Below, piece after piece: positions 36,878 to 44,886 of a DNA stretch of 64,000 nt (position 1 is the stretch's first letter; each line of letters begins with the position of its first letter). The notes beneath the pieces are model-generated. The model made no database searches and had not been told where the DNA came from. It saw only the letters and a program-made list of their open reading frames with translations. The stretch spans positions 360,807 through 424,806 of the forward strand of contig NZ_JAKIKW010000001.1 in NCBI RefSeq assembly GCF_023283945.1, read 5' to 3'. Origin of the DNA: Shewanella gelidimarina (GTDB taxonomy: Bacteria > Pseudomonadota > Gammaproteobacteria > Enterobacterales > Shewanellaceae). A program made the translations under genes and the position numbers.

Positions 36878-37927
36878 ATGGTTTTTAAGTATCGCTGGCC
36901 GATTGCTATTATGGTTGTTGCGAGCTTCTGCACATACCTCTATTTGAGCTTTCAAGGTCAGGCTGACTTTAATTCTGGCATGCAGCACCGCGCAGATGTC
37001 ACTGCGGCGGTATTAGACAAACAGCCTCAAGTAACCAGCTTAACCACTTCTATTTCTGCCATCCCAATGAGTCCGTTTAACGCGAGTCAAAAACCTCATA
37101 TAGCACTGGGACTAAAACTTTTTTTAGATCCGCAACTGTCCTCTAACGGTGAGATCAGCTGCGAATCATGCCACCATATTTACGACAATGGAGCGGAAGA
37201 TCTACCGGTATCGATAGGGGTCAATGGTCAAGGTCAGCGTAATTCACCAACTGTGTTCAATATTGGCCTCAATACGCGTTTTTTTTGGGATGGCCGGGCA
37301 AATAGTTTGGTGGAGCAGATTGATGGACCCATCCATAATCCACTGGAGATGGACAGTAACTGGGACGACATTGTGGCACGGTTGTCGACGCAAACAAGGT
37401 ATCGCAGTGCTTTTGCTATGCATTACGACGAGGGGATCACTGAGCAAACCATTAAAGACGCCCTGATCGTTTTTATGCTGCAGCTCAACACCCCTAATGC
37501 GCCCTTTGATCGCTATCTCAATGGTGATAACGCTGCGATATCGCAGGTTGCCATTAATGGTTGGGGGAAGTTCCAGACACTCGGTTGCATCTATTGCCAT
37601 CAAGGGCAAAACATTGGTGGCAATCTGTTTCAAAAATTTGGCAATGTGCAATCGGTAGATACGCTTAATGAGGACTTTGGTCGATACGCGCAAACCCATG
37701 ACGTTAATGACAAACACGTATATCGGGTACCGAGTCTGCGTAATGTGGCGCTTACCGCGCCCTATTTTCATGACGGTAGGGCCAGAAGCATAGAGGAAGC
37801 GGTAGTCGTCATGGCCAAAGTGCAGCTTGGCAAAGATTTAGAAGCGACAACGTTAGTGGAGTTGGTGGCCTTTCTTGACTCACTTACCGCGCCGGAACCA
37901 CCGATCCTTAAGGAGCTAAGCCAATGA
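36878..37927 (+). CDS. Di-haem cytochrome c peroxidase (CcpA/MauG family)
   Basis: This 349-residue protein has an N-terminal membrane anchor or uncleaved signal (about 7-26). Two haem c motifs are present, CESCHH at about 96-101 and CIYCHQ at about 237-242, in the expected peroxidase context (FDPQLS-NG-ISCESCH, FWDGRA, then TLGCIYCHQGQNIGG and PYFHDGRA). It reduces H2O2 in the periplasm or acts as a MauG-type oxidant. The gene overlaps the hybrid kinase gene by ATGA, an unusual coupling. A GGGAGG lies 7 bases before the start. Confidence 0.92.
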   Translation: MVFKYRWPIAIMVVASFCTYLYLSFQGQADFNSGMQHRADVTAAVLDKQPQVTSLTTSISAIPMSPFNASQKPHIALGLKLFLDPQLSSNGEISCESCHHIYDNGAEDLPVSIGVNGQGQRNSPTVFNIGLNTRFFWDGRANSLVEQIDGPIHNPLEMDSNWDDIVARLSTQTRYRSAFAMHYDEGITEQTIKDALIVFMLQLNTPNAPFDRYLNGDNAAISQVAINGWGKFQTLGCIYCHQGQNIGGNLFQKFGNVQSVDTLNEDFGRYAQTHDVNDKHVYRVPSLRNVALTAPYFHDGRARSIEEAVVVMAKVQLGKDLEATTLVELVAFLDSLTAPEPPILKELSQ

Positions 37928-40728
37928 AGTTGTTAAGCTATAAAGCAGTCTCTATTTGGCTGGTAGTATTGGCAACCCTAGTGTTATCGCTTATGGCCAT
38001 GTTGGTGACTAAGGTGCATATCGTGCAGCAATATCAATATGCCTATACCGAATTAAGTCACAGAGTATTAGCGGTTAGAGATGATGTGTTTAAAATCGAA
38101 ATCAGCAATGGTCAAGATTACGATATTATCTCAGATGCACTGGTGAGTGTTGAGCGACAAGTGCAAAGCTTGCAAGCGAGTTTACAGCGAAATAACCTGT
38201 CAGCCATTGTCGCCATATTACTCAGCGATCCGCAGATGGAGCAGCATGCGCGGCAACTATCATCTTCAGTGTCTCTGTTAGTCGTTGACCTAGAGACCAT
38301 ATTGCGACTAAAAATTTCGCAAGAGTACTCAAAGGATACCGTAAAGCTATTGCAACATGATCTGTGGCGAAAAATACCTGATAGCAGCAGTCGGATGTAT
38401 ATGGTTGCAGAGGCTGTTGATTTACCTGTCGAAGGGGCAGTACCTGCGGCATTATTAGCCTCTACTAGTTATCAGAGCTTACGCATTCACCAACAACTGT
38501 TGTTGCAGTTGGAGCAACAAATCGCGACAAAAAATCAGTTAATTCTCAATGCGGAATTGAGAACTAGTATCAGTGAACAGGGCTTTTTCTGGCTATCCGT
38601 TACCGAAAACACCAAGTTAAAGCTGCTATTCACTAGCATGCTATTGGTCATTATTTTGTCGCTTTATTACCGATTGCAATTAAAAGAACAACACCGTAAA
38701 GATCGCGTCATGTTGCAAACACTCACCGATTCAGAGCAAGAAAAAAATCTACTCTCTCTGGTCGCTGAGCATGCACAAGACGGCTTTATTATTACGGATC
38801 ACCAAGGTTATGTGACCTGGGTAAATAAGGGGTTTACCACCATATCAGGCTATGAACAGCAGGATATTTTGGGTAAAAAGCCCGCTGAAGTACTGCAGGG
38901 TAAACAAACGGATAAAGAGCAAATAGATAAAATTAGCCAAGCGATTAAGAGGAGTGAATCCATAGAGGCTGAAATTATTAATTATCATAAAGATGGCAGC
39001 GAATATTGGGTTGATATGACCATCAATCCGGTTAAGGATAGTTCCGGAAAGGTCAGTAATTTTATTGCTGTGGAGCGAGACACTAGCGCACGTAAGCAGA
39101 TGCAAGATGATTTAGCTCAGGCGGTGATCAAAGCTGATGTGTCGAATCGAGCCAAGTCTACTTTCTTGGCAACAATGAGCCATGAATTAAGAACACCACT
39201 CAATGGTATTTTGGGTATGGCACAAATCATTGAGCCAAATTTGGAAAATCCAGAGCACCGCAAGCAGATCCAGATATTGCTTGAGTCTGGTAATCATCTG
39301 ACGTCACTCCTTAATGACATTCTTGATTTTTCTAAAGTGGAACAAGGTAAGTTAGAACTGGAAATCGAAGTGTTTAATTTTATCAGTGTGCTCGAACCTA
39401 TCACCAATACTTATACTCCCATCTGTAATGAGAAAGACATTGAGTTTATCGTTGAAAACGACATTGAGGCAGAGCAATCTTTTAAAGGCGATAAAGCTCG
39501 GATAAGACAAGTGATTTATAATTTGCTGAGCAATGCAGTTAAGTTCACCCAATCTGGCAGTGTGTCATTAAGGCTAAAGCAAGCGAACAATACGGCGGGC
39601 AATCAAGGCGTTGAGATTACGATTCAAGACACTGGCATAGGGATCCGCGATGAACGCTTGGAGTCTATATTCGATCCGTTTACTCAGGCTGAATCTTCAA
39701 CTACGCGTCAGTATGGCGGCACGGGTTTAGGCCTATCGATTGTTAAACAACTTGTTGAGTTGATGAGTGGCAATATTACCATCAGCAGTAAAGTCGGCAG
39801 CGGAACAACTTTTGTATTATTCATCGATGTCGATCGTGCCGCAAGCGTGCAGCCAAGCAACGAAGTCACCGAAGTTGCAGTGAGTAACCTACCTGATAGC
39901 ATCAATATTCTGATTGCTGAAGACAACAAGATAAACGCGTTAGTGGCAAAAACATTCTGCCAGCGGTTAGGCCATAGCGTCGATGTGGCTAAAAATGGTT
40001 TAGAAGCTATCCAAATGGTACAAGAAAATCATTATGATTTAGTGGTGATGGACAACCATATGCCGGAGATGGATGGTATTGAAGCGACTGAAATTATTAG
40101 GCATAAGCTTAAGCTCGATATCCCCATTTTTGCTTGTACCGCTGATGTATTTCAGCAAGCCCATGACAACATGATTAATGCGGGTGCTAATCATGTGTTG
40201 ACTAAACCGCTACAAGAGCAGAGTTTTAGGGATGCGCTCAATCAGCACTCCCAGATCATCTGCAAGATCTATTTATCTCACCAACTGAGTAAGTTGAATA
40301 ATGACGACAACAAAATTGTCGCGCTTGCTCGGCATCGAGAAGAGGAGTTGAACATTACCGAAGCCGATATCGACTTTAAGCAGTTGTTGACCGCTTGCGA
40401 TAATGATAACGCCAAGGTGGAAAATTTACTCAGTTCATTTAAGGCATTTTCCGAGAACTCGATTACTCAATTGATCCAGGCATTTGATAGCGACGATGTG
40501 AAAGAGATCCATATCTTGGCACATGCAATTCAAGATATGGCGAGCAACTTCTATGCAGTGCGCTTAAATAACCTAGCCAAGGAGATTGAAGTGGTTACTG
40601 GAAAGGGCATTATTCCGCAACTTGAGTCATTACAGCAGTTGATTAATTTGCTTGAAGTGAACATGCATCAAAATCAGCGATTTATGTCTAAGGCTGGACG
40701 GATAACTAACGCTGATAAGCTAGCCTAA
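37924..40728 (+). CDS. Hybrid sensor histidine kinase with PAS, receiver and HPt domains
   Basis: This is a 934-residue inner-membrane phosphorelay protein. Two helices (about 9-30 and 237-253) enclose a periplasmic sensor of about 200 residues. Then come PAS (about 279-390, QDGFIITDHQGYVTWVN), a coiled dimerisation domain with phospho-His at about 420 (SHELRTPLNG), an ATPase domain (about 520-640, N box NLLSNAVKFT, G box GTGLGLSIV), a receiver (about 660-780; phospho-Asp in VVMDNHMPEMDG) and a C-terminal HPt-like domain with His near 866. The HPt motif AHAIQDMASNF lacks the usual Lys-Gly after the histidine. No separate response regulator is adjacent. Coupling to the peroxidase gene suggests a peroxide or redox signal, by inference. 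Confidence 0.9.
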   Translation: MKLLSYKAVSIWLVVLATLVLSLMAMLVTKVHIVQQYQYAYTELSHRVLAVRDDVFKIEISNGQDYDIISDALVSVERQVQSLQASLQRNNLSAIVAILLSDPQMEQHARQLSSSVSLLVVDLETILRLKISQEYSKDTVKLLQHDLWRKIPDSSSRMYMVAEAVDLPVEGAVPAALLASTSYQSLRIHQQLLLQLEQQIATKNQLILNAELRTSISEQGFFWLSVTENTKLKLLFTSMLLVIILSLYYRLQLKEQHRKDRVMLQTLTDSEQEKNLLSLVAEHAQDGFIITDHQGYVTWVNKGFTTISGYEQQDILGKKPAEVLQGKQTDKEQIDKISQAIKRSESIEAEIINYHKDGSEYWVDMTINPVKDSSGKVSNFIAVERDTSARKQMQDDLAQAVIKADVSNRAKSTFLATMSHELRTPLNGILGMAQIIEPNLENPEHRKQIQILLESGNHLTSLLNDILDFSKVEQGKLELEIEVFNFISVLEPITNTYTPICNEKDIEFIVENDIEAEQSFKGDKARIRQVIYNLLSNAVKFTQSGSVSLRLKQANNTAGNQGVEITIQDTGIGIRDERLESIFDPFTQAESSTTRQYGGTGLGLSIVKQLVELMSGNITISSKVGSGTTFVLFIDVDRAASVQPSNEVTEVAVSNLPDSINILIAEDNKINALVAKTFCQRLGHSVDVAKNGLEAIQMVQENHYDLVVMDNHMPEMDGIEATEIIRHKLKLDIPIFACTADVFQQAHDNMINAGANHVLTKPLQEQSFRDALNQHSQIICKIYLSHQLSKLNNDDNKIVALARHREEELNITEADIDFKQLLTACDNDNAKVENLLSSFKAFSENSITQLIQAFDSDDVKEIHILAHAIQDMASNFYAVRLNNLAKEIEVVTGKGIIPQLESLQQLINLLEVNMHQNQRFMSKAGRITNADKLA

Positions 40729-41770: not shown

Positions 41771-44056
41771 TTAGGCGCTTAGCGCGTAGCCGCCCTTTAG
41801 ATGAGATACTTGCTCGAATCCTAGTCGGTGCATCGCTTGAGCTGCAATCATTGAACGACTCCCACTGCGACAAACCAATACCCATTGTTCATTTTTATTA
41901 TTTTGGTGCTCTTGCATAAACTGCACTAAACGCGTTAATGGCACGTTCTGACTCGATTGCTGTGAGTGGTTTAGCGCATATTCATGCGGTTCTCGAATAT
42001 CAATAATCTTCACGTTATGGTCTTGTCTCATTGCCGCTTTGAGACTCATCGCGTCATACTCTTTTATCTTAGATTTGTCACCGTTTCCAATGATGGCACC
42101 ACACATGATTTCGGTACCGACTTCGTCATTAAGGTGCGTATCTAACAAGGTTTTTTGTTGCTGAAAATTAAGTTCAGGAAGTGCTTCGTTGAGTACCGCA
42201 TTGAGTAAGTTGTTGCGACTAACCTCAGCCTCTAGGCTAGTGGTAAATTCATTATTGTAATCATGGCTGGCACAAATCAATGTATTGCAGCTAATGCTAT
42301 CTCTGATCAACTTCAAGCTATGAAACAGGGCTCGGCTGCAGCTTGAGTCAAAATTAGTTCTGCCTAGACTACCCATCAATATGGTATCACCGCAAAAAGC
42401 GTATTGTGTTTGCTGAGGCATATTATCCAATGCTAAGGGCGTTGCGCATAACAGTAAACTAATGCTATCGCGAGTGTGGCCGGGAGTCGGTAGCCTGACC
42501 AACTGTTTTGAACCAATGCTAATCGTTTGGTATTGCTGACCTAAGTGTTCAGTGGTTTCTTGAGTTTCTGGCCAACCTAATACATCAGATTGTTGCTTTG
42601 CTAAATAACGTTCAACCAGAAGTTCACGACCAGATTGGTGATCGGCATGGCCATGAGTATCGATGGCGGCGACCAGCGTCAGCTGCTGACATTGCAGCAA
42701 GGTGTCGAGTCTCTGGATCAGCTCTGGCAATGGGTCGATAATTAACGCTTGTTTACTTGATGAGTCGACATAGACCCAAGTGCAACTCGCGCCAGAGCGT
42801 AACTGCAATAAGCCATCTAATGGTGTTTTGTCGGAGATATTACTGCTGTCGTCTAATATCATGCAGCTTTGAGTGAGAGCTTTTGAAGCGGTTTTAATGC
42901 GCAAGCAGGCAGTGTCGACTTCTGTTTGAGTCATCGCAGGCCCAAAGGACATGCGAATAGCAGCTTCACTTTGCCAAGCGGGTAGCCCCATTGCGTCTAG
43001 TACAAAGCTTCTGCTGACTTTAGAGCTGCAGGCGGACCCAGAGCTGACGCGAATGTTGGCAGCATCAAAAAGGTCCATGATCTCTTTGCTGCTAAAACCG
43101 GGCACGGCAAAGTTAATGGTAGTCGCAACGCTATGGCTAAAGCTGTTGTTAAACACAATCTCAGGAAAACACTCAACTAAGGTGTTAGCCATTTGCTGTC
43201 GATAGTGTGTCAGTTGTTCACTTGTTGAAAATGTTGAGTCGTCAGGGCACAGCAACATCTCAAATATAACGTTAAGCGCCGCCATACCAGGCAGGTTTTC
43301 AGTGCCTGAACGTAGACCGCCTTCTTGACCTCCGCCGGCAATAAAAGGCGTAAATGGCGCAGTATCTCGAATATAGACGAAACCAATACCTTTCGGGGCA
43401 TATAACTTATGACCACTGAAGGGAGCGTAATCGATGCTGGTGTTCTTGAGATCTAGCTCGGTTTTACCTAATGCCTGAACGCAATCAACCATCCAAAAAA
43501 TACCCGGGTTGGCGCTGCGAATAGTGTTTTCCAAAGCTGATAGATCTTGAAATACGCCAGTTTCATTATTAACTGCCATGGTGCAAATTATCAGAGCATT
43601 GGGTGCTTCTAGGCTAATAAAGTCATGATCAAGTAAGCCAAACTCATCAACTGGAATCGCTTTTACATCAGCCGCAATCCCTAACACGTCAAGCCAGTGC
43701 TTCAATGATTCCGGTACCGCTTTATGCTCAGTGGCACCATAGAGTACCGAGTAGCTTTGATTTGCTGACATATTACTCTTGGCTGCAATCAGCGCCGATA
43801 GGATTGACGTTTGGATCCCTTCCGTCGCACCACTGGTAAATATGAGTTTTCCCTCTCCCGTTCCAAGCAGCTTTTTTGCTCTTAGGCGAGTTTGTTCCAT
43901 TAAGTTTTTTGCTTTTAACCCAGTGATGTGACTACTGCTTGGGTTGCCAAAAAGAGTTTCCATGGCCGATAACGCGGCGGCAGCAGCTTGAGGCAGCACG
44001 GGAGTCGTGGCATTTGCATCAAGGTAAATTTGGGTCAGTTCAGGGGTGTTATTCAT
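41771..44056 (-). CDS. Three-domain fusion: cysteine desulfurase, persulfide-dioxygenase-like MBL hydrolase and rhodanese
   Basis: This 761-residue protein has three complete catalytic units. Residues about 1-395 form a NifS/IscS-type desulfurase: the PLP lysine is in SGHKLYAPKG (about 212) and the catalytic cysteine in SGSACSS (about 325). Residues about 410-650 form a metallo-beta-lactamase domain like ETHE1 persulfide dioxygenase: THGHADH near 467, then PGHTRDS, FCGDTILMGSLGRTNF and CASHDYN. Residues about 670-761 form a rhodanese with VCRSGSRS (Cys near 728). The set could take sulfur from cysteine, oxidise persulfide to sulfite and shuttle sulfane sulfur. It is cytosolic (no signal). Separate proteins with these domains are common; this order in one chain is uncommon to my knowledge. 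Confidence 0.93.
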   Translation of the reverse strand: MNNTPELTQIYLDANATTPVLPQAAAAALSAMETLFGNPSSSHITGLKAKNLMEQTRLRAKKLLGTGEGKLIFTSGATEGIQTSILSALIAAKSNMSANQSYSVLYGATEHKAVPESLKHWLDVLGIAADVKAIPVDEFGLLDHDFISLEAPNALIICTMAVNNETGVFQDLSALENTIRSANPGIFWMVDCVQALGKTELDLKNTSIDYAPFSGHKLYAPKGIGFVYIRDTAPFTPFIAGGGQEGGLRSGTENLPGMAALNVIFEMLLCPDDSTFSTSEQLTHYRQQMANTLVECFPEIVFNNSFSHSVATTINFAVPGFSSKEIMDLFDAANIRVSSGSACSSKVSRSFVLDAMGLPAWQSEAAIRMSFGPAMTQTEVDTACLRIKTASKALTQSCMILDDSSNISDKTPLDGLLQLRSGASCTWVYVDSSSKQALIIDPLPELIQRLDTLLQCQQLTLVAAIDTHGHADHQSGRELLVERYLAKQQSDVLGWPETQETTEHLGQQYQTISIGSKQLVRLPTPGHTRDSISLLLCATPLALDNMPQQTQYAFCGDTILMGSLGRTNFDSSCSRALFHSLKLIRDSISCNTLICASHDYNNEFTTSLEAEVSRNNLLNAVLNEALPELNFQQQKTLLDTHLNDEVGTEIMCGAIIGNGDKSKIKEYDAMSLKAAMRQDHNVKIIDIREPHEYALNHSQQSSQNVPLTRLVQFMQEHQNNKNEQWVLVCRSGSRSMIAAQAMHRLGFEQVSHLKGGYALSA

Positions 44057-44352
44057 TGTTTTCAGCTCTTTATTGTTTTATCGCCAAATGCCGCTTATAA
44101 CTTTTGGGAATAACTAATATCTTGACGCTATATTAGCAGGTTGGGAATAATGATCAAGATCACATTCTCTCAGTTGTGGTTGCAATAAAGGTGAGGGCGG
44201 AGCGGTGATATAATTAATGGTAACAAGGGCGGTGTGAATCGCTTTAAGCTCAAGCGATGAGTTGAATATAGGCGCTAAAGAGAAGCATCGTGCGGAATAG
44301 ACCATAAAAAAGCGCCGATAAATCGGCGCTTAAATTGCGTTGGTCGCGTGCC

Positions 44353-44886
44353 TTATTTACTCTTGGCTTTAACAGCTTCAATAAGCGCATCCCATTGCGG
44401 GTATTGAACTAAGCTTTTCGATAAGTCCCCCCAAGGTTGCATTGTTTGCTGTTTAAAATCGACGGAGTCGGCTTTCCCAATCTTGAGCTCATATAGATAA
44501 TAAAAGGCCGAGGCGCGGTAATTTGCGGCACAATGGATCAGAATGTTTTTGCCTTTATTGGCATCCATGATGGCAAAAAACTGCTCCACATTGGCGACCG
44601 TAGGCTGCTTCCAGTCTACGTCTATCTGTTGATATTGCATGCCAGTGCTGGTGACCAAACTCGCTTCGTCGTCATGGCCACTAGAATTGCCTTTGGGAAT
44701 GAGGTTGATCACTAACTCAACACCCGATTGCTGCAGTATAGGAAACTCCGCTTTAGTCGGTAGCCCAGATGTGATGATGCTGCCCTGATTAAACTGCACT
44801 GCTTTTAAGTCTTGTAACTGCTGCGGTGCAATTTCTGCAACCGCTATTGAGCTGAGTAAACTGGCGAGTAGAAAAATAAATCTCAT
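44353..44886 (-). CDS. Secreted DUF442/tyrosine-phosphatase-like protein
   Basis: This 177-residue protein has a signal peptide (about 1-17, AVA-EIA) and a phosphatase-like fold of the beta-lactamase-hydrolase-like/DUF442 type (ITSGLPTKAEFPILQQSGVELVINL). The loop reads HCAANYRAS, a C-x4-R pattern rather than the C-x5-R of tyrosine phosphatases. DUF442 domains are often joined to persulfide dioxygenases and rhodaneses, and here the gene lies 296 bases upstream of the fusion carrying both. The substrate is unknown. Confidence 0.8.
   Translation of the reverse strand: MRFIFLLASLLSSIAVAEIAPQQLQDLKAVQFNQGSIITSGLPTKAEFPILQQSGVELVINLIPKGNSSGHDDEASLVTSTGMQYQQIDVDWKQPTVANVEQFFAIMDANKGKNILIHCAANYRASAFYYLYELKIGKADSVDFKQQTMQPWGDLSKSLVQYPQWDALIEAVKAKSK

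Follow-up and report, generated by a model that had tools for sequence, protein, structure and literature searches.

A triple-domain desulfurase, persulfide dioxygenase-type and rhodanese protein of Shewanella gelidimarina as a candidate enzyme for the conversion of cysteine to sulfite

What might a protein do that carries, in one chain, a cysteine desulfurase, a metallo-beta-lactamase (MBL) domain of the predicted persulfide dioxygenase type and a rhodanese? The question is raised by a gene of Shewanella gelidimarina (assembly GCF_023283945.1) located within a stretch of 64,000 nucleotides (contig NZ_JAKIKW010000001.1, positions 360,807 to 424,806), which was analysed as a whole and is called the window below; all coordinates refer to it. 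The interval 41771..44056 is filled exactly, on the minus strand, by a single open reading frame (ORF) of 761 codons plus stop with an ATG start; its plus-strand reading contains many stops. The ORF and its homologs identify the interval as the coding sequence of a triple-domain protein of 761 residues. A previous examination of the letters alone (hereafter, the sequence-only reading) had claimed one such protein with three enzyme domains, and the ORF and the Pfam matches on the minus strand bear this out. We consider it rather likely that the product is a self-contained, O2-using catabolic enzyme converting L-cysteine to alanine and sulfite without the release of H2S.

Based on Pfam annotation, the chain contains Aminotran_5 (residues 10-381, 182.7 bits), Lactamase_B (residues 424-532, 27.2 bits, a weak match above the cut-off of 22.7) and Rhodanese (residues 673-757, 49.2 bits), in this order. 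The three domains, all on the minus strand, were delimited as a type I (NifS/IscS-like) cysteine desulfurase at residues 9-392 (42881..44032), from Pfam, NCBIfam and PDB sequence matches and a TM-score of 0.91 over the target with 1ecx; a putative persulfide dioxygenase-type MBL domain at residues 413-625 (42182..42820), from its relatives in sequence and fold; and a rhodanese at residues 665-760 (41777..42064), from Pfam and its alignment with the rhodanese of BpPRF. The NifS-like 1ecx was the nearest solved structure for the N-terminal half among the 60 chains listed of 77 matched, and none of these 60 spanned both halves of the protein. The 50 listed Foldseek matches of the N-terminal fold were all desulfurases of the NifS/IscS/Nfs1 type or selenocysteine lyases. 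No NCBIfam model reached its cut-off among the 25 listed of 30 matched; the scores of the desulfurase part were 257 against 530.75 for NifS, 209 against 480 for DndA, 197 against 643.2 for IscS and 98 against 475.1 for SufS.

A search with the window protein gave 3995 matches (E <= 0.001), a total that may include plain desulfurases and is not a count of fusions; the best 120 were all 744-792 residues long. In this list, read by eye, Aminotran_5 was assigned to 120/120 proteins, Rhodanese to 119/120 and Lactamase_B to a part of them. Their sources were Shewanella, Colwellia, Pseudoalteromonas, Paraglaciecola and relatives, and most were named 'aminotransferase class V-fold PLP-dependent enzyme' (PLP, pyridoxal phosphate). 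Because the 120 homologs are alike in length and domain labels, the triple-domain chain is not due to chance or to an assembly accident. In comparison with the close relative L002, the ratio of nonsynonymous to synonymous substitution (dN/dS) was 0.064 for the desulfurase, 0.029 for the dioxygenase and 0.047 for the rhodanese part, with dS already at 0.8-1.7; the ratio is usable in few comparisons, dS being saturated for most other pairs.

Conservation was read from an alignment of 111 distinct proteins from 127 loci and from a second set of 124 proteins (120 from the listing for a planctomycete query and 4 from that for the window protein). The N-terminal domain has the PLP lysine and the catalytic cysteine in a long loop that characterise type I cysteine desulfurases. 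K217 (SGHKLY; 43406..43408, minus strand), H111 and C343, the persulfide-forming cysteine of the SSGSACSS loop (43028..43030, minus strand), are invariant in 111/111 aligned proteins, and C343 is also kept in 124/124 proteins of the second set. The catalytic cysteine of the rhodanese, C729 (CRSGSRS; 41870..41872, minus strand), is present in 110/111, the sole gap being L099, which is cut by a contig end. Other near-invariant cysteines are C158, C398 and C425 (110/111) and C652 (109/111), the last of which aligns with a cysteine of BpPRF.

The weak Lactamase_B match is predicted to be a domain of the persulfide dioxygenase type. Its sequence is nearest to BpPRF, MxPDO and ETHE1, ahead of glyoxalase II; the best solved relative of the C-terminal half is BpPRF (residues 422-757, E 3.8e-21), which scored 128 bits with a 30-sequence profile against PDB. 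When the predicted C-terminal half was submitted to Foldseek, BpPRF held rank 1, dioxygenase-type entries extended through rank 22, and glyoxalase II appeared from rank 23; among those 22 rows, 3tp9, 3r2u, 2gcu and 4efz bear generic titles, and we take 3tp9, 3r2u and 4efz to be of the dioxygenase type. For 2gcu, this assignment is given in PMC6060420. The mean pLDDT (confidence score) of the AlphaFold model was 85.8 for the full chain and 83.8 for the C-terminal half.

The residues of interest in this domain are H468, H470, H527, D557 and H598. H468 (42653..42655), H527 (42476..42478) and D557 (42386..42388), all on the minus strand, align with the 2-His-1-Asp triad of ETHE1, MxPDO and BpPRF and are the predicted Fe ligands, their equivalents in AcPDO (H57, H113 and D130) having this role (PMC6060420). 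The triad is kept in 109/111 distinct proteins and in 124/124 of the second set, and R566, the equivalent of R139, an essential second-sphere residue of AcPDO, in 106/111. D472 or H473 is altered in 7 of the 109 triad-keeping members (only D472 in L116), which fall in few clades. In glyoxalase II, both positions belong to the second metal site, and their loss with the triad kept fits a one-metal oxygenase. At the level of sequence, catalytic residues are thus present in all three domains, as the sequence-only reading had held.

The triple-domain protein is a real and widespread family. The fusion was read from 160 fetched loci, giving 125 distinct proteins of 604-842 residues from Shewanella, Colwellia, Pseudoalteromonas and their kin and from Planctomycetota. 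A planctomycete member used as the query gave 3276 matches (E <= 0.001; plain desulfurases may again be included, so that this is not a fusion count), and the best 120 were 669-898 residues long and bore, among others, the names of Mariniblastus, Fuerstiella and two Verrucomicrobia. The database search for domain order and distribution, which had been proposed with the sequence-only reading, places the fusion in Pseudomonadota and Planctomycetota by locus and in Verrucomicrobiota by protein names alone.

The distribution is patchy in every group sampled. In gammaproteobacterial draws, the fusion was found in 1/369 genomes class-wide (the window's own) and in 42/394 genomes and 13/115 genera of the order; for the genus Shewanella, the figures were 12/24 genomes, and 14/29 in the order draw. 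The planctomycete draws gave 1/294 for the phylum (the query's own genome), 4/296 for the order, 8/199 for the family and 12/28 for the genus of G1247. Of nine metagenomic proteins read, seven are truncated fragments of this fusion: P0145 and six that had seemed to be separate C-terminal halves. Genuine two-domain relatives occur under names such as 'sulfur dioxygenase' and have 24-29% identity. Since the apparent separate halves are pieces of the fusion and the true two-domain relatives are distant, the simplest history would be the joining of a PRF-like dioxygenase-rhodanese to a NifS-like desulfurase. One fusion, P0069, is 64% identical to the window protein and stands under the name of a Flavobacteriales metagenome-assembled genome; this name is probably a binning error.

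Neighbouring genes in relatives bear on the substrate and the product. A TauE/SafE sulfite-exporter gene adjoins the fusion in 12/125 distinct members (15 loci), in three arrangements and two phyla, at 26-467 bases: upstream on the same strand in two planctomycetes (26-31 bases), downstream in the Paraglaciecola and Colwellia type (87-94 bases), and divergent in Pseudoalteromonas (229-258 bases) and G666 (467 bases). Pfam confirmed TauE in 10/10 proteins submitted, while L083 and L109 are known from our own profile only. No TauE gene was found elsewhere in the flanks, also with an enlarged profile at E 0.01; the first profile, having been made from genes next to the fusion, favours such genes. 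From the 1-8 TauE matches per genome in 16 genomes, we estimate that chance would place a TauE gene next to about 0.2 of the 125 members. In addition, 4/125 members adjoin a regulator gene with 45-50% identity to E. coli DecR/CyuR and 34-37% to Lrp, three in one gammaproteobacterial clade and one in the planctomycete G1209. In the bigR operon, the gene of the dioxygenase Blh stands together with that of a TauE-related sulfite transporter (PMC5823870), and CyuR, once activated by cysteine, switches on the degradation of this amino acid (PMC9040844). By analogy, the adjacent TauE/SafE genes speak for sulfite as the product, and the DecR/CyuR-like neighbours speak for cysteine as signal and substrate.

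Because of these neighbours and of the precedents of the bigR operon, CyuR and a Pseudorhodoferax protein, we regard the conversion of cysteine to sulfite as the best account of the fusion and suggest the following pathway. In the first step, PLP on K217 would take sulfur off L-cysteine, leaving alanine and a persulfide on C343. Then, the persulfide would pass to C729 of the rhodanese, as in the two-domain desulfurase-rhodanese of Pseudorhodoferax (CD-Rhd), whose rhodanese cysteine was concluded to take over the desulfurase persulfide (Selles et al. 2022, PMC8931425). It is possible that C729 hands the sulfur on to a small thiol; for Shewanella we guess glutathione, and planctomycetes perhaps use another thiol. 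The Fe(II) site of H468, H527 and D557 would use O2 to oxidise the thiol persulfide to sulfite, and the thiol would be freed. The sulfite could then enter assimilation by reduction or leave the cell; in some relatives, the TauE/SafE protein of the adjacent gene would export it. A passage from cysteine sulfur to sulfite had been proposed in the sequence-only reading, and it gains support from the sequence, from the conservation of the predicted Fe site and, mostly, from the sulfite-exporter and cysteine-regulator genes next to relatives.

Cysteine dioxygenase (CDO), which belongs to a different enzyme family and acts on free cysteine, also leads from cysteine towards sulfite with the use of O2. 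Since only 4/46 genomes of the genus contained CDO_I, it is plausible that sulfite is formed with O2 by some other route in this genus. The idea that the fusion replaces CDO was rejected: CDO_I occurs in 3/22 genomes with the fusion and in 1/24 without it, figures that give no ground for an anticorrelation.

Several observations weigh against the conversion of cysteine to sulfite. An adjacent TauE gene is lacking in 113/125 members, 1000 bases or more being in view on either side in 116/125, and the 12 adjacent cases cluster in clades. The window gene's own neighbours include neither a TauE nor a DecR-like gene, and the best DecR match of the genome is 37% identical. L193 has an Lrp-family gene on the far side of TauE, but with 29% identity to DecR and 35% to Lrp it is not of the DecR-like kind. 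D141, likewise of the second sphere, is essential in AcPDO, its Ala variant being inactive (PMC6060420); the corresponding position is Asn in 96/111 members, including this protein, and Asp in 11, and in the second set it is Asp in 119/124. Two members of the same order, L121 (G765) and L122 (G774), have no Fe site, the MBL part being degenerate or gone, and oxidation is dispensable in them since the desulfurase residues and the rhodanese cysteine are kept; they are natural reversions towards a desulfurase-rhodanese. The genome of the window also contains a separate MBL-rhodanese match (G000 C39:7143-8096), 27% identical to residues 417-751.

Doubt arises chiefly from the location of some relatives in a SUF operon, which suggests a role in Fe-S assembly. 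In eight planctomycete genomes of one clade (G1247, G1233, G1259, G1165, G1217, G1270, G1271 and G1268), the gene order is regulator-sufC-sufB-sufD-fusion-Rieske-SufT-like (loci L136-L140, L189, L190 and L194). The sufB, sufD, Rieske and SufT-like genes were found in 8/8 and sufC and the regulator in 7/8, the contig of the eighth (L190, G1271) ending inside sufB; SufC, SufB and SufD were all above the NCBIfam cut-offs in L136, and in L189 and L190, sufD and the fusion are separated by a divergent gene. It is known that sufS is often located after sufD. The fusion might then supply sulfur for the assembly of Fe-S clusters or other cofactors, with the desulfurase and rhodanese feeding scaffolds and the dioxygenase burning surplus persulfide when acceptors are short. 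We consider this unlikely as a general explanation of the protein. The eight cases form one clade and so probably represent one event; G1247, the one genome examined for SufS, has its own SufS elsewhere (L173, 556 bits against a cut-off of 475); the fetched gammaproteobacterial loci gave only one weak SufC match, of the ABC-ATPase kind; and the TauE and DecR-like neighbours would be left unexplained. In the same planctomycete genus, L141, L142 and L191 have the fusion without SUF genes in view (the contig of L141 starts just before the fusion). On the tree, which was built with FastTree only and has long branches (L122, L121, L125 and others), TauE adjacency requires at least six changes, DecR adjacency two and SUF location two; the SUF survey left out G1272, and the second SUF change stems from L185, whose neighbours are absent from the data and which was scored 0. 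Catabolic and Fe-S roles may both be possible, in different lineages.

It is also conceivable, although quite improbable, that the protein detoxifies sulfide or thiosulfate in the manner of PRF or CstB, taking up external sulfane sulfur via the rhodanese, with the desulfurase only topping up the persulfide. The domain order and fold of the C-terminal half resemble those of PRF, and in G1209 a CstB-like protein of 470 residues with MBL and rhodanese parts (L142 5591-7003, minus strand) is encoded directly downstream of the fusion, the DecR-like regulator being upstream. However, the desulfurase is retained where the Fe site is lost, and it holds 123/149 near-invariant columns, a count biased by the two rows without the metal site. 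The full HxHxDH motif of this member and the GloB score in NCBIfam (64.9 bits, below the cut-off of 200.8) would agree with a dinuclear-Zn hydrolase such as glyoxalase II that has no role in sulfur oxidation, yet the changes of D472 or H473 in seven triad-keeping members and the closer similarity to dioxygenases in sequence and fold make such a middle domain very improbable. Finally, selenocysteine lyases share the N-terminal fold and reach good scores when PDB is searched with the profile, but the SclA match reached 31.6 bits against a cut-off of 525, and selenocysteine or selenide is hardly to be expected as the substrate in place of cysteine.

Conversion of cysteine to sulfite remains the account we prefer. 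Tentatively, and as a wider proposal of which we are less sure, the family may represent a one-protein, CDO-independent pathway in which L-cysteine is converted to sulfite and alanine while the reactive sulfur stays bound at every stage, and which is spread through marine Pseudomonadota, Planctomycetota and Verrucomicrobiota under the generic label 'aminotransferase class V'. Sulfite export would be encoded next door in several lineages, and in the one planctomycete clade with the gene in a SUF operon, Fe-S assembly and O2-dependent persulfide disposal would share one enzyme. If this is true, many marine heterotrophs possess an unrecognised aerobic route from cysteine sulfur to sulfite that bypasses free H2S, and genome-based predictions of sulfur flux, sulfide release and cysteine tolerance would change. 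The protein would also provide a single-chain model of persulfide channelling, with three active sites, a built-in relay and oxygenase-less natural members as controls.

Upstream of the gene, on the minus strand, a putative CRP-like operator, TGTGATCTTGATCA (44151..44164), was found, which resembles the consensus of the CRP site. It occurs once in the window (0 expected), and its exact 14 bases are present upstream of 20/111 distinct members, all of the genus Shewanella by our own reading. The last 13 bases of TGTGATCTTGATCA are identical in 10/10 aligned Shewanella upstream regions, as is TAATAT, a predicted -10 element (44130..44135, minus strand) read from the upstream alignment and conserved in close Shewanella relatives. 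By hand count, the centre of TGTGATCTTGATCA lies about 33 bases before the start predicted from the -10 element. CRP-like sites with at least 8/10 consensus letters were found in 33/111 upstream regions, against a shuffle mean of 12.9 and maximum of 18. A conserved palindrome, GAAATAATTTC (at most one mismatch), is located upstream of the fusion in 9/111 members, these being of the Psychrobium and Colwellia type (L027, L029, L030 and some Colwellia loci). It was rejected as a CyuR operator, being by eye unlike the CyuR motif published in PMC11408624; the upstream region of E. coli cyuP had no match to it at up to three mismatches.

The window copy has no partner gene that is kept beyond the genus: three of four neighbour clusters are confined to Shewanella, and the fourth (sensor-kinase pieces) also occurs in Pseudoalteromonas. 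The upstream neighbour (44353-44886, minus strand) encodes a dual-specificity-phosphatase-like protein of 177 residues, similar to the DUF442 sulfurtransferase domain of Blh (NF040641, 45.7 bits). It was rejected as a partner, being adjacent on the same strand in 16/111 loci, all Shewanella; its N-terminus resembles a signal peptide by eye, and the product is therefore probably in another compartment than the fusion. A large hybrid sensor kinase-like ORF of 934 residues (37924-40728, plus strand) follows a di-haem cytochrome-like gene (36878-37927), as read by eye.

Both two-domain combinations, desulfurase-rhodanese and dioxygenase-rhodanese, are already known. The sequence-only reading had mentioned that fusions of MBL with rhodanese exist, and BpPRF/PpPDO (PDB 5ve3-5ve5), with the common MBL-rhodanese order and the best sequence and fold match to the C-terminal half, is such a fusion. 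As in PRF proteins, the MBL domain of the window protein is followed by one rhodanese with its cysteine; PRF proteins have no further domains, whereas the window protein has the N-terminal desulfurase, which BpPRF/PpPDO lacks, and the identity is 24-26% in Foldseek alignments. The domain placement of BpPRF differs from that of the predicted C-terminal half (root-mean-square deviation of about 16 A over both domains, TM about 0.5), which may be a model error. CstB, a type III dioxygenase-rhodanese, also combines MBL and rhodanese without a desulfurase; 3r2u, presumably CstB, is less similar to the window protein (76 bits versus 128 for BpPRF). In Blh of the bigR operon (DUF442-ETHE1; PMC5823870), a sulfurtransferase and a dioxygenase share one chain, and the operon encodes a TauE-related sulfite transporter. 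Blh differs in having DUF442 in place of rhodanese, another domain order and no desulfurase, and the window protein reaches only 26.1 bits with its model NF040641 (cut-off 625), in the MBL part only.

CD-Rhd unites desulfurase and rhodanese in one chain, as here. The main text on it (PMC8931425) describes a 54 kDa protein with assays of H2S and transpersulfidation, reports no dioxygenase domain and no sulfite step, and has 0 occurrences of 'lactamase' and 'persulfide dioxygenase'; in the window protein, the dioxygenase sits between the desulfurase and the rhodanese. The sequence-only reading was right in the domain identities and the intact sites, and it missed the strand, the names from three phyla, the characterised desulfurase-rhodanese fusion and the SUF-operon relatives. 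Its judgement that the triple lacks a good description agrees with our literature searches aimed at the fusion and its neighbours, which found no description of it and covered few subscription journals, so that absence is no proof. Set beside CD-Rhd, BpPRF/PpPDO, CstB and Blh, the triple fusion and its genomic setting appear to be new.

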